NCBI RefSeq assembly: GCF_022669155.1
Contig: NZ_JALBVB010000040.1
Location: forward strand, 30,755-94,754
DNA length: 64,000 nt
Reading direction: 5' to 3'
Origin: Kineococcus sp. TRM81007
GTDB lineage: Bacteria > Actinomycetota > Actinomycetes > Actinomycetales > Kineococcaceae
In this document: positions 51,401 through 56,043 of the stretch, one piece after another
Numbering within the stretch: the stretch's first letter is position 1
Layout of the letters: each line of letters starts with the position of its first letter
Translations under genes and position numbers: made by a program
Notes under the pieces: model-generated
Seen by the model: the letters and a program-made list of their open reading frames with translations, nothing else
Told to the model about the DNA's origin: nothing
Databases searched by the model: none

Positions 51401-51680
51401 TCAGGTGCCGGGGCGGCGCAGCAGGGCGTTGGGAACGACGCTGAAGGCCGGGTGCTGGTCGGTGGCCGGCACGGACAGGGTGCTCTCCCCGGCGGCGACG
51501 GCGGTGCTGGCCCAGTGGCTGCCCGCGTTGCTCAGCCACTCCAGGTGCACATCACCACCGTCGGCCAGGTAGGCCTCCAGCAGCACGGGCAGCTGGGCGC
51601 GGCGGTACTGGCCACGCTTGTCGTTCATCTCGGCCAGGGTGTTGCCCGGTGACCACACCTCCACTACGGCGTCGGGCACG
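51401..51680 (-). pseudogene. Uma2-family endonuclease, C-terminal fragment
   Basis: The minus-strand segment reads VPDAVVEVWSPGNTLAEMND followed by KRGQYRRAQLPVLLEAYLAD and the tail ending PNALLRRPGT. This is the C-terminal half of a Uma2 (DUF820, PD-(D/E)XK-like) protein, including the PDxVVEV core strand. The usual N-terminal ~100 residues are missing and coding character ends near 51680, where an unrelated plus-strand gene begins. No start codon gives a complete protein. Confidence 0.68.
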
Positions 51681-51685
51681 CCGCG

Positions 51686-52114
51686 GTGGACCTCGTCGGT
51701 GGCCTCGTGGCGCAGACGGCGGCGACGCTCACCACCCAGGGGTTGCGCGCCGCCATCGCCGCCGCCCGCACCGAGCGTCCCGGTGGCGACCGCCTCGACG
51801 AGGACCGCATCGAGGTCCTGGAGGACGAGACGTCCACCGCCCTCGCCACGGCGCTGCTGCTCGGGCAGGCCGAGCGCGCGCTCGGTGAGCGGCGCAACGC
51901 CCACGTCACCGCAACCGTGAGCCCGCTCCTGGACGACGCGCTCATCGCCCTCACCGACGCCGGTCCCGGCGTGCACCCGGACGAGGCCCTCAAGCGGCTG
52001 GGTGAAGTCGCCCGGTGCTTCTCCGGCCAGCCGCTCTTCGTCACGGTCGACGAGTTCGACGCCTGGATGGCCGACCCGGTGGCATCGCTGACGATGAACC
52101 CCAACTGGCACTGA
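51686..52114 (+). CDS. Hypothetical protein at a recombination junction
   Basis: A 142-residue protein with good third-position G/C. Helical N-terminal region (TQGLRAAIAAARTERPGGDR), an acidic centre, and a C-terminal stretch LFVTVDEFDAWMADPVASL. It begins within a few bases of the truncated Uma2 end, so its true 5' end could have been lost. I do not recognise the family. Located 131 bp upstream of the TerD-nuclease gene, so possibly related to that system. Confidence 0.5.
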   Translation: MDLVGGLVAQTAATLTTQGLRAAIAAARTERPGGDRLDEDRIEVLEDETSTALATALLLGQAERALGERRNAHVTATVSPLLDDALIALTDAGPGVHPDEALKRLGEVARCFSGQPLFVTVDEFDAWMADPVASLTMNPNWH

Positions 52115-52244: not shown

Positions 52245-54524
52245 ATGCTGTCTCGGGGCGCGAACCGGGCGCTGCCGCCGCAAGCCCGCCGTCTGCGCGC
52301 GGTGCTCAGCTGGGACGAGAGCGAGGACGGCGTCGCGGACATCGACGCCTCCGCGCTGCTGCTGAGCGCCGACCGCCGGGTGCTCAGTGATGAGCACTTC
52401 GTCTTCTACAACCAGACCGCCTCACCGGACGGGGCGGTGCGGCACCTGGGGCGCACCAGCACCGAGGGCGGTGCCGCCGAGTGCGTCGGCATCGACCTGG
52501 ACGAGGTCGGTGACGACGCCAGCTTCGTCGTGCTGGTCGCCAGCGTCTCCGACGGCACCTTCGGGCAGGTGCCGGGCCTGCGGCTGGTGCTCAGCGCCGG
52601 CGGGGAAGCGCTCGCGCACGTGCAGGCGGGTGAGGCCGGCGGCGAGACCGTGCTCGTGCTGGCTGAGCTGTACCGGCGAGGAGGGGACTGGAAGGTGCGC
52701 GCCGTCGGGCAGGGCTGGGACAGCGGCCTGGCAGGGCTGGCCCAGGACTTCGGCGTCGACGTGGCCGACAGCGATGACGAGGACACCGGCGACGGCATCG
52801 GGCAGGTGCCGCTCGAGCAGGCACGACTCCAGCAGGGCGGTGCGTCCGCGGAGATGCGTGTGCAGGACGTCGCGGTCGATGAGGACGATGACCTCATCGA
52901 GGTGGTCGAGCCCGACGAGGACCGCCAGGAGGAGCCGGTTGCCTCTCCGGGCGCGGCGGGTGCGCCGAGCGCCGCAGGTGCCAGCACTGACCCGGCCGGC
53001 AGCACCGACCCGGCCGACCCCGCCGACGATGCCGGCCCCGTCGCGCCGGTCGCAGCGTCTCCTCCGGTCACCGCGAGGAGTTCGGCCGCGGTCAAGGGGG
53101 TGCGTACGCGCAAGACCAAGGCGGCCCGTGCGGTGGTGCCGGTGGTGCCGGCGTTGCGGTTGCGCATGGACGAGTCCTGGCAGAGCGCGCGGGTGTTCTC
53201 CATCTCCGGGGTGGGAAGCGGGGAGGAGCAGGAGAAGCGCGCCACCTCCGCGCTGCTGGCCACGATGATGGGGGTGCGGGCCTTCGCGCGCGGGCTGACC
53301 GGCCATTTCGACGCTCCCGGCGGAGCGGTAGAGACCTACCTGGAGACCCCGTTCACGCTGGGCGAGGCCACCGTGATCCCCGACGGGGTGATCCGCATCG
53401 CACGCGCCGGGCGGGAGTGGACCGGGTTGGTGGAGGTCAAGACCGGTGACGGGCAGTTGCGCCGGGCGCAGGTGGAGAACTACCTCGACGTCGCCCGCGA
53501 GCAGGGCTTCGACGCGGTGATCACCATCTCCAACGAGATCGCTCCCGGTGCCGGTGAACACCCGGTGGAGGTGGACCGGCGCAAGCTGCGCGGCAAGGTC
53601 GCCTTGTTCCACCTGTCGTGGGCCGAGGTGGTGCACGAGGCGCAGATGACGCTGAGCCACCGCGGGGTCGGTGATGCGCTGCAAGCGTGGCTGCTGGCCG
53701 AGCTGATCCGTTACCTGCAGCACCCCCGCTCGGGAGCGGCGGGTTTCGAGGACATGGGGCCGGCGTGGGTGGGCGTGCGTGAGGCGGTCGCGGCCGGCAC
53801 GCTGCGCGCCAGCGATCGCAAGGCACCGGCGGTGGCCGAGTCGTGGATCCGCCTGGTGCGGCAGCTGCGCCTTCGCCTGACCGCGGAACTGGGGGTCTCG
53901 GTGGTGCACGTGCTGCCGCGCAGGATCGCCACCGACCCGGCCGCGCGCCTGAAGGCCACCACCGCACAGCTGGCGGAGAGCGGACAGCTGGAGGCCACCC
54001 TGCGGGTGCCCGGGGCAGCAGGTCCGGTCGGCATCGTGGCGGACCTGCGCACCGCACGGGTGCGCACGTCCGTGCGGCTGTCCGCCCCGCAGGAAGGTGG
54101 TGGGCAACGGCGCGTGAGCTGGCTGCTGCGCCAGTTGAAGGACGCCCCCGCCGACCTGCTGATCGAGACGCACTTCACCGGGCGGGCCGAGAGCACCTGC
54201 GAGCAGTTGCGCGACGTGCGTGATTCCCCCGGGATGCTGCTGCCCGACCGGAGCGCCGAGGTCGGTGCGTTCACGTTGACGCGCACCACGACGATGGGCA
54301 CCAAGCGCTCGGGGGTGAAGGGGGCGTTCATCCCCTCGGTCACCGAGGCCCTGGAGGACTTCTACCGCAGTGTCGTCCAACCGTTGCGCGCGTGGGTGCC
54401 GCCGGCGCCCAAGCTGCCCGACGAGGCCACCGGCATGCCCCCTGCGGATGCGGAGATCGACAGCCCGGCCCGCGAAGACGACGCAGGCGGTGACGAGGCG
54501 AGCCTCAGCGCTCCGACCCGTTGA
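52245..54524 (+). CDS. TerD-domain protein with PD-(D/E)XK nuclease-like domain
   Basis: A 759-residue protein. The N-terminal TerD domain (residues ~1-165) has MLSRGANRALPPQ, SWDESEDGVADIDASALLL, HFVFYNQTASPDGAVRHLG and ETVLVLAELYRRGGDWKVRAVG, i.e. the Ca-binding stress fold. An acidic/Pro/Ala linker (~180-300) follows. The next domain holds VIPDGVI (D380) and GLVEVKTGDGQL (E397, K399), then a helix (RRAQVENYLDVAREQG): a PD-(D/E)XK signature. A C-terminal ~300-residue region is unassigned. ATG 52245 has GGAGG at 5 nt. Probably acts on nucleic acid under stress or attack. Confidence 0.85.
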   Translation: MLSRGANRALPPQARRLRAVLSWDESEDGVADIDASALLLSADRRVLSDEHFVFYNQTASPDGAVRHLGRTSTEGGAAECVGIDLDEVGDDASFVVLVASVSDGTFGQVPGLRLVLSAGGEALAHVQAGEAGGETVLVLAELYRRGGDWKVRAVGQGWDSGLAGLAQDFGVDVADSDDEDTGDGIGQVPLEQARLQQGGASAEMRVQDVAVDEDDDLIEVVEPDEDRQEEPVASPGAAGAPSAAGASTDPAGSTDPADPADDAGPVAPVAASPPVTARSSAAVKGVRTRKTKAARAVVPVVPALRLRMDESWQSARVFSISGVGSGEEQEKRATSALLATMMGVRAFARGLTGHFDAPGGAVETYLETPFTLGEATVIPDGVIRIARAGREWTGLVEVKTGDGQLRRAQVENYLDVAREQGFDAVITISNEIAPGAGEHPVEVDRRKLRGKVALFHLSWAEVVHEAQMTLSHRGVGDALQAWLLAELIRYLQHPRSGAAGFEDMGPAWVGVREAVAAGTLRASDRKAPAVAESWIRLVRQLRLRLTAELGVSVVHVLPRRIATDPAARLKATTAQLAESGQLEATLRVPGAAGPVGIVADLRTARVRTSVRLSAPQEGGGQRRVSWLLRQLKDAPADLLIETHFTGRAESTCEQLRDVRDSPGMLLPDRSAEVGAFTLTRTTTMGTKRSGVKGAFIPSVTEALEDFYRSVVQPLRAWVPPAPKLPDEATGMPPADAEIDSPAREDDAGGDEASLSAPTR

Positions 54525-54726: not shown

Positions 54727-56043
54727 GTGCTCAGCGACGCTCGGATGCGGGAGGTGGCGCAGCGGCTGCTCCGCGTGCCCGGGATCGAGGCGGTGACGCT
54801 CGGCGGCAGCCGCGCCCGCGGCGAGCACTCCCCGGGCTCCGACGTCGACCTGGGGCTGTACTACCGCCCGCCGCTGGACGTGGCGGCGCTCGGCCGTCTC
54901 GCCCGCGAGGTCGCCGGGCCGCACGCGCGGGTCACCGCACCCGGTGGCTGGGGGCCGTGGGTGGACGGCGGTGGCTGGCTGAGCGTCGACGGCACCGCCG
55001 TGGACTGGATCTACCGCGACCTGGACCGGGTGCAGCGCAGCTGGCGCCAGGCTCAGGAGGGTGGACTCACCTGGCACGTGCAGACCGGGCACCCGCTGGG
55101 TTTCCCGGGTTTCGCGTACGCCGGGGAGGCGGCCTCGGCCGTCGTCCTCGCCGACTCCACCGGTGAGCTGACGGCCCTGCACCGCGCCGCGCAGGCGTAC
55201 CCGCCGCGGCTGCGCGAGGCGGTGGTCGCCTCGCTGGGGGAGGCCGCCTTCCTCATCGGCGGCGCCCGCAAGGCCGCGCCGCGCGGTGACACCGCCTACG
55301 TGGCCGGTTGCCTGTTCCGGGCCCTGCTGCTGTGCGCGCACGCCCTGCACGCCCACGCCGGCCGGTGGGTCGTCAACGAGAAGGGTGCCGTGGCGGCCGC
55401 CGGGCGGCTGCCCGGGGCGCCCGAGCGGTTCGCCGAGCGGGTCGACGCGGCCCTCACCTCCCTCGGCGGCGGGCCGGCGGGCCTGGTGGCGGCCCTCGAC
55501 GCCGCCCAGCGGATCGTGGACGACACCGGGCGCTGCTGCCGCAACGGTCCGGACGCCGTGCAGCGGGCGAGCGTGGAGCAGTGGCCGGTGGTGAGAGGGG
55601 TCCGGTTGCGGGCGCTGGCCGACGCGCCGCAGGCGTTCGGCTCCACGCTGGCGCGCGAGGAGGTTCTCGACGACGGGACCTGGCGCCGGCGGGTGGAGGA
55701 CGGCGACTGGTTCCTGGCGTGGTCCGCGGGGCGCGCGGTGGGAGTGGCGGCCCTGGTGCCGGTCGAGTCGGTGCCCCCGGCGGGCGAGCGTGAACTCGTC
55801 TCGGTGTGGGTGGACCCCGGCCACCGCGGCGGCGGGACGGCCGGCCGGCTCGTGGAGGCCGCCTGCGACCGGGCCGCCGCGCAGGGAGCGGCGACGGTGA
55901 GCCTGTGGGTGGCCGACGGCAACCCGCGGGCCCGGCGGTTCTACGAGCGGCTCGGTTTCCGTCCCACGGGGGAGCGCAAACCCTTGCCACGTTCCCCGGA
56001 CGTCGGTGAGGAACGACTGCGGCGCGCCGCCGCACCCGGGTGA
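54727..56043 (+). CDS. Nucleotidyltransferase-GNAT fusion protein
   Basis: A 438-residue fusion. The N-terminal pol-beta-type nucleotidyltransferase has GGSRARGEHSPGSDVDL (residues 26-42, metal Asp39 and Asp41) and a helical C-terminal substrate region to about 270. From residue ~276, a complete GNAT domain follows (RLRALADAPQAFGSTLAREE, acetyl-CoA loop VDPGHRGGGTAGRLVEAA, terminal NPRARRFYERLGF). The join is in frame without a linker. Each half alone is common; small-molecule or antibiotic modification is plausible. The stop overlaps the next gene's GTG. Confidence 0.83.
   Translation: MLSDARMREVAQRLLRVPGIEAVTLGGSRARGEHSPGSDVDLGLYYRPPLDVAALGRLAREVAGPHARVTAPGGWGPWVDGGGWLSVDGTAVDWIYRDLDRVQRSWRQAQEGGLTWHVQTGHPLGFPGFAYAGEAASAVVLADSTGELTALHRAAQAYPPRLREAVVASLGEAAFLIGGARKAAPRGDTAYVAGCLFRALLLCAHALHAHAGRWVVNEKGAVAAAGRLPGAPERFAERVDAALTSLGGGPAGLVAALDAAQRIVDDTGRCCRNGPDAVQRASVEQWPVVRGVRLRALADAPQAFGSTLAREEVLDDGTWRRRVEDGDWFLAWSAGRAVGVAALVPVESVPPAGERELVSVWVDPGHRGGGTAGRLVEAACDRAAAQGAATVSLWVADGNPRARRFYERLGFRPTGERKPLPRSPDVGEERLRRAAAPG

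Follow-up and report, generated by a model that had tools for sequence, protein, structure and literature searches.

A Solitary Actinobacterial Gene Joining a TerD Domain to a Probable PD-(D/E)XK Nuclease and a YbjN-Like Domain

The Locus and Its Gene

The window analyzed here is the whole stretch of 64,000 nucleotides from Kineococcus sp. TRM81007, and the gene under study encodes a protein of 759 amino acids, whose reading frame has a GC content of 0.76, 0.53 and 0.90 at the three codon positions, the pattern of a genuine high-GC gene. An N-terminal TerD domain is followed by an Ala/Asp/Val/Pro-rich linker with a net charge of -14 by composition, which is presumably disordered, and by a single conserved module (residues ~308-735) that comprises the predicted nuclease and a YbjN-like domain. 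The features of the gene, all on the plus strand, are the following:

52245-54524, plus strand: TerD / PD-(D/E)XK / YbjN-fold gene (759 amino acids; ATG at 52245, stop ending at 54524)
52248-52751, plus strand: TerD domain, residues 2-169 (Pfam PF02342; alignment with canonical TerD)
52764-53165, plus strand: linker, residues 174-307 (composition; outside the conserved module)
53190-53714, plus strand: predicted PD-(D/E)XK nuclease domain, about residues 316-490 (AlphaFold2 model, structure matches, weak profile matches)
53343-53345, plus strand: E367, Glu terminating the first core strand; invariant (112/112)
53382-53384, plus strand: D380 of the PD motif (112/112)
53433-53441, plus strand: E397-V-K399, the (D/E)XK motif (E and K 112/112)
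53469-53483, plus strand: Q409-xxx-Y413, the QxxxY motif, on the helix that follows the catalytic strand (112/112; model helix 100-113)
53739-54401, plus strand: C-terminal domain with a modelled YbjN fold (AlphaFold2 pLDDT 91; Foldseek top match YbjN; VIA-align rows)

The first-pass annotation, made from the sequence without database searches, had described a complete TerD domain followed by a large part without assignment, and this description stands. Pfam recognizes TerD alone in the protein (PF02342, residues 2-169, E 2.8e-38, 131.7 bits against a cut-off of 25.3, profile positions 5-187 of 187), solved TerD structures match residues 2-173 (3ibz, E 3.7e-31), and neither NCBIfam nor PADLOC gives a match to the 759-residue chain. 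The final ~300 residues, considered unassignable, are in fact a folded domain of ~240 residues (pLDDT 91) and a short tail.

On one side, the neighbors in the window are genes for an enolase-family protein, an SDR, an aldo/keto reductase (we take these two assignments from a reading of the translations), an amidohydrolase and a VOC protein, after which comes a scar that contains two further features:

about 51470-51724, minus strand: Uma2-type remnant (Pfam Uma2, E 2.9e-5, below the cut-off, profile positions 82-160 of 172)
51692-52108, plus strand: remnant of a ~534-residue gene, its last ~135 residues (142-residue open reading frame 51686-52114; homology to the whole gene of relatives)

Both had been noticed before and are present as described, but they had been misread as an unknown gene and a truncated Uma2 gene, whereas both are gene remnants: the 142-residue frame corresponds to the C-terminal quarter of the ~534-residue gene, with 63% identity over 139 amino acids. 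The region 51401-52114 as a whole is a probable deletion scar, in which the front parts of both genes would have been lost and the remnants abut at ~51.7 kb. The Uma2-type remnant is not part of the system, and the remnant of the ~534-residue gene probably plays no part in the function here.

In one congener (G009) the ~534-residue gene is whole; it and a gene for a 363-residue glycine-zipper protein are neighbors of the TerD-nuclease gene and divergent from it. The two genes (L130:11261-13953) overlap by stop and start and encode the 363-residue glycine-zipper coiled-coil protein and a protein of 534 residues; in the N-terminal region of the latter, a D...QAK stretch recalls a nuclease. Several members of the genus carry the 534-residue gene, as do distant actinobacteria, and genomes that lack the module are among them.

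Beyond the TerD-nuclease gene lie a nucleotidyltransferase-GNAT gene, a DUF1353 gene and a GntR/FCD regulator. The first of these (54727-56043) encodes a 438-residue fusion of an N-terminal nucleotidyltransferase, with a weak PADLOC match to PDC-S09, and a C-terminal GNAT acetyltransferase. The defense or genome-maintenance island proposed for this locus is not borne out by its surroundings, which give weak PADLOC matches at best and consist of a run of catabolic genes, of regulators and of what is probably a deletion scar.

The Nuclease Domain

The proposal that TerD is fused here to a PD-(D/E)XK nuclease survives the two checks that the first-pass annotation had named as able to refute it, one on the predicted fold and one on the conservation of the motif. 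D380, E397 and K399 are found at the positions originally given and are identical in all 112 aligned modules, where E367, P379, Q409, Y413, N430 and H456 are invariant as well; since the three catalytic residues are accompanied in 112/112 by E367, P379, Q409 and Y413, the motif cannot be put down to chance. Over the module, relatives are 44-78% identical to the 759-residue protein.

An AlphaFold2 model of the module, built on 26 aligned sequences (pLDDT 88, pTM 0.84), and its structural matches place a nuclease fold around residues 370-430. In model numbering, a first helix is succeeded by strand 54-59 (then E367), strand 74-80 (with D380 just before it), strand 83-91 (with E397 inside and K399 just after it), helix 100-113 (Q409 and Y413) and strand 117-122; this modelled alpha-beta-beta-beta-alpha-beta topology is that of the PD-(D/E)XK core. 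Searched with Foldseek, the model retrieves first the restriction enzymes EcoT38I and MspJI (E 0.0024 and 0.01), and VIA-align returns AF1548 (Z 8.8), FokI (7.6), Can2 (7.2), Card1 (7.1) and McrC (6.5), these scores, like those of the C-terminal domain below, being moderate. Weak Pfam matches among the relatives include VRR_NUC, TnsA-N and Tox-REase-7, all three members of the PD-(D/E)XK superfamily. No named Pfam family was accepted for the nuclease, as the best candidate, VRR_NUC, was matched by 8 of 26 relatives with E 0.0026, which is not significant.

Sequence, conservation, modelled fold and weak profile matches all point to a likely PD-(D/E)XK nuclease, with which the superfamily shares the core fold and the E...PD...ExK...QxxxY residues. 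The domain is probably a metal-dependent DNA nuclease, and we regard it as highly probable that it cuts nucleic acid. Unlike Can2 and Card1, which carry a CARF domain, the TerD-nuclease protein has none, and in contrast to FokI it contains no known DNA-recognition domain. Catalytically inactive members of the PD-(D/E)XK superfamily exist, and a dead scaffold for DNA binding or complex assembly might be imagined here as well; against such a scaffold, which we hold to be very improbable, stands the identity of the four canonical catalytic residues, together with the Q and the Y, in every one of the 112 modules.

The YbjN-Like Domain

Folded alone with AlphaFold2 from 74 sequences, residues 478-734 gave a confident model (pLDDT 91), for which Escherichia coli YbjN was the first Foldseek match (E 0.024, probability 0.92). 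The head of the VIA-align list is formed by 2plg, YbjN, Spa15, YktB (2a8e), AmyR, 3cxj, ExsC and SchA (Z 5.2-7.0). All of the first 10 rows are structures of the YbjN family, type III chaperones or small uncharacterized proteins of similar size, and SycE is also among the top rows (range Z 4.8-7.0); the tool warns that values such as the top Z of 7.0 may reflect merely a common arrangement. The model of the whole module matched the same YbjN/chaperone group, with Z up to 8.1. At the level of models, and with moderate Z scores, the C-terminal domain resembles YbjN and type III chaperones in fold, the difference being that here it is fused behind a nuclease. No link between the domain and YbjN was found at the level of sequence, either by hmmscan of the 74 members or by a profile search of solved structures. 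Among YbjN-type proteins, the relative DR1245 partners the SSB-like protein DdrB in DNA processing in Deinococcus (PMC3575483), and YbjN-type "TY-chaperones" occur in conflict systems (PMC9503650).

The Fused TerD Domain

The 62 aligned fused TerD domains retain the core of the family (VFYNQ, GE.YRR, WK.RA.GQG). The loop GDNRTGEG[ED]GDDE of canonical TerD from the same genome is replaced by LGRTSTEGGAAEC in the fused TerD, and the corresponding acidic loop, GDN..GEG(D/E)GDDE, is absent from the consensus of the 62 domains. We take this loop to be the calcium-holding site of canonical TerD. TerD has been reported to bind Ca2+ (PMC8123226), and calcium sensing had been attributed to the fused domain by the first-pass annotation; because the acidic loop is missing, both here and in the 62-domain consensus, this attribution is lowered, while the identity of the domain as TerD is unaffected. 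The fused TerD, which is full-length but differs from the canonical TerD of Ter systems in lacking the loop and in carrying a nuclease, would, judging from its sequence, more likely serve for docking or for binding a signal than for sensing calcium. We also would like to point out a 629-residue open frame elsewhere in the genome (G000:C18:53617-54681) in which two TerD domains stand in tandem; the acidic loop is likewise missing from the first.

Distribution and Relation to Ter Genes

Within the genus, 3 of 11 genomes carry the module in full. It is matched in 45 of 296 genomes of the class, with a long match in 40, and in 17 of 296 genomes of a phylum-wide sample that includes partly the same genomes as the class set. 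Named genome contigs yielded 311 loci, of which the best 80 were kept; by title all of these 80 are Actinomycetota, and they include Blastococcus, Klenkia, Cellulomonas, Sanguibacter, Pseudonocardia, Nocardia, Rhodococcus, Micromonospora, Actinoplanes, Nocardioides and others. In nearly all genomes bearing it the module is single-copy. The nuclease-YbjN module makes up an actinobacterial family of its own, absent from Pfam, NCBIfam and PADLOC, none of whose families reaches the cut-off. Part of the C-terminal domain is found again, in broken form, elsewhere in the same genome (G000:C43:157588-158061; L131:7614-8058, minus strand); this second copy covers residues ~491-615 and 633-660 at 89-95% nucleotide identity, with a 53-base gap, and looks like the pseudogene fragment of a close duplicate.

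TerD is absent from 21 of the 40 class genomes with a long match, and there the module forms a stand-alone reading frame. At least four TerD genes are present in 18 genomes, and the module frame is of fusion length in 17 of these, TerD having been verified in 9 of the 17 and the remaining 8, all Streptomyces, having been judged by the length of the frame. In the tree of the module, stand-alone and fused forms are separated by one well supported branch, bar three Nocardia/Rhodococcus records within the fused clade: L083 and L098 carry TerD immediately upstream, in a frame that is broken, and L070 is without detectable TerD. If these three are counted as fused, the unrooted tree requires one label change, with which a single gain and a single loss of TerD would both be compatible. 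This distribution and the split in the tree make the nuclease-YbjN pair the invariable part of the protein, TerD being an addition that accompanies possession of a Ter system. The stand-alone form shows that the core function does not need TerD, which counts against a Ter-coupled reading of the protein.

In the Kineococcus genome itself, a canonical TerD-TerC-TerD set lies on contig C55, whereas the TerD-nuclease gene, on contig C39, is outside any TerB/TerC/TerD cluster; TerB, too, is encoded in this genome, and no match to a TerF-type vWA protein was found in it. The components of Ter systems are thus located elsewhere in the genome, the TerD-nuclease gene standing apart from the ter operon. 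In Klenkia (locus L054) the gene is directly followed by two genes of TerD size, and TerC and TerD are also found among the near genes of fused loci.

Genomic Context in Relatives

A comparison of 15 representative loci against 80 revealed no broadly conserved neighbor within 8 kb, and flanks often differ between congeners that share the gene (Actinoplanes, Pseudonocardia, many Rhodococcus). A fixed operon partner was therefore not accepted: recurrent pairs, among them that of G009, exist but are rare. One such pair, a 366-residue glycine-zipper coiled-coil protein and a 413-residue protein (L141:5366-7704 and L145:5367-7705 on Rhodococcus plasmids; L095:9305-11016), is encoded directly upstream of the gene on two Rhodococcus plasmids, with a related pair directly downstream in R. 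yunnanensis; it has no clear homology to the pair of G009. In relatives the TerD-nuclease gene is carried on large plasmids, of Rhodococcus and Streptomyces, in whose records such proteins are labelled just "TerD family protein." A phage or viral origin was rejected, as phage records match the TerD part alone and no relative of the module was detected in viral contigs with a single-sequence query, which finds close relatives only.

The defense setting that is lacking at the locus in the window is met in some relatives and plasmids, where the gene does lie among defense genes. For the 94 nearest genes of 24 fused loci, PADLOC gave 26 matching families, against 2 for 81 distal genes, in counts for which members are not named and several families may match one gene; the families near fused loci include mad2, mad3, mad8, AriA, PDC-S01, HNH and ZorD. 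We consider this difference a hint. Most loci are without a recognized defense neighbor, and for the protein itself there is no PADLOC model, the relatives giving one match (E 0.05, in 1 of 26).

A CBASS operon (SMODS, E1/ThiF, JAB, DUF6602) is located within ~6.5 kb of the gene on the Rhodococcus plasmids pLP337 (L141:1458-5315) and pRZP3 (L140:11035-14886), and a SIR2 gene is near it on one plasmid. CBASS as an obligate partner was rejected, since the operon was seen on these two plasmids alone, the comparison with other loci having revealed no further case. These neighbors hint at shared use and bear on the idea of an abortive-infection effector, in which a Ter or second-messenger signal would lead to degradation of the cell's own DNA and so stop phage spread, as with Can2. 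The signal-gated nucleases Can2 and Card1 are among the structural matches, and a nucleotide-like signal has been proposed as a ligand of TerD (PMC7159879, PMC7824862). However, the CBASS operon brings its own candidate effector, DUF6602, and the protein has no CARF or SAVED ligand-binding domain, and we judge this kind of effector to be quite unlikely.

Proposed Role

Our preferred reading, to which we assign a probability of about 0.55, is that the protein is a solitary Ter-coupled DNA nuclease acting in stress and in conflict with phages or mobile elements. The PD-(D/E)XK core, with its complete metal-binding active site (E367, D380, E397, K399 and QxxxY), would cut DNA. The YbjN/chaperone-like domain would probably dimerize and bind a peptide or a partner, serving target recognition or self-inhibition. 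In ter-rich hosts TerD, on its acidic flexible linker, may be a plug-in with a regulatory task, bringing the nuclease to the TerD/TerC complexes of the cell or reading their signal, whereby the nuclease would be active only under stress or infection. Cutting of foreign DNA and self-destruction would both be compatible with the sequence.

Alternatively, the protein could be a repair or genome-maintenance nuclease that acts under oxidative or radiation stress, its YbjN-like domain recruiting a single-strand binding or repair protein. Such a role would accord with the invariant QxxxY-type motif, with the partnership of DR1245 and DdrB noted above, with the nearly constant single copy and the presence of the module in TerD-less genomes, and with the nature of TerD proteins as general stress proteins. 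A housekeeping enzyme is nevertheless ill-matched by the patchy occurrence (in the genus and the class alike), the location on plasmids and the shifting neighborhoods, and no repair genes were seen among the neighbors. On the first three of these grounds the balance tips somewhat towards a role in conflict with phages or mobile DNA, and housekeeping repair appears rather unlikely.

TerD, PD-(D/E)XK and YbjN-like domains are all known, as is, from work cited in PMC3710099, a link between TerD and DNA-cutting systems. The TerD-dependent anti-phage loci with McrBC-like restriction of Anantharaman, Iyer and Aravind (cited in PMC3710099) combine, as far as that citation describes them, TerD with DNA-cutting enzymes, as is the case here, with the difference that the present combination is a single polypeptide encoded by a solitary gene. 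No paper describing a TerD-nuclease fusion was found, which is weak evidence of absence, and an earlier mention is possible.

Ter genes protect against tellurite, colicins and phages by a mechanism that has long been unclear. TerD joined to an apparently active nuclease offers a concrete biochemical output, from which one may ask what TerD senses and what the nuclease cuts, and the TerD-less nuclease of TerD-less genomes is a natural control for the contribution of TerD. Tentatively, and with some doubt, one may go further and imagine that the module founds an actinobacteria-wide group of single-gene immune nucleases, with the TerD fusion as a direct DNA-cutting output of Ter and TerD as an exchangeable sensor that ter-rich genomes gained or that disappeared along with the ter genes. 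The fusion may be one means by which the poorly understood Ter stress and anti-phage system cuts DNA.
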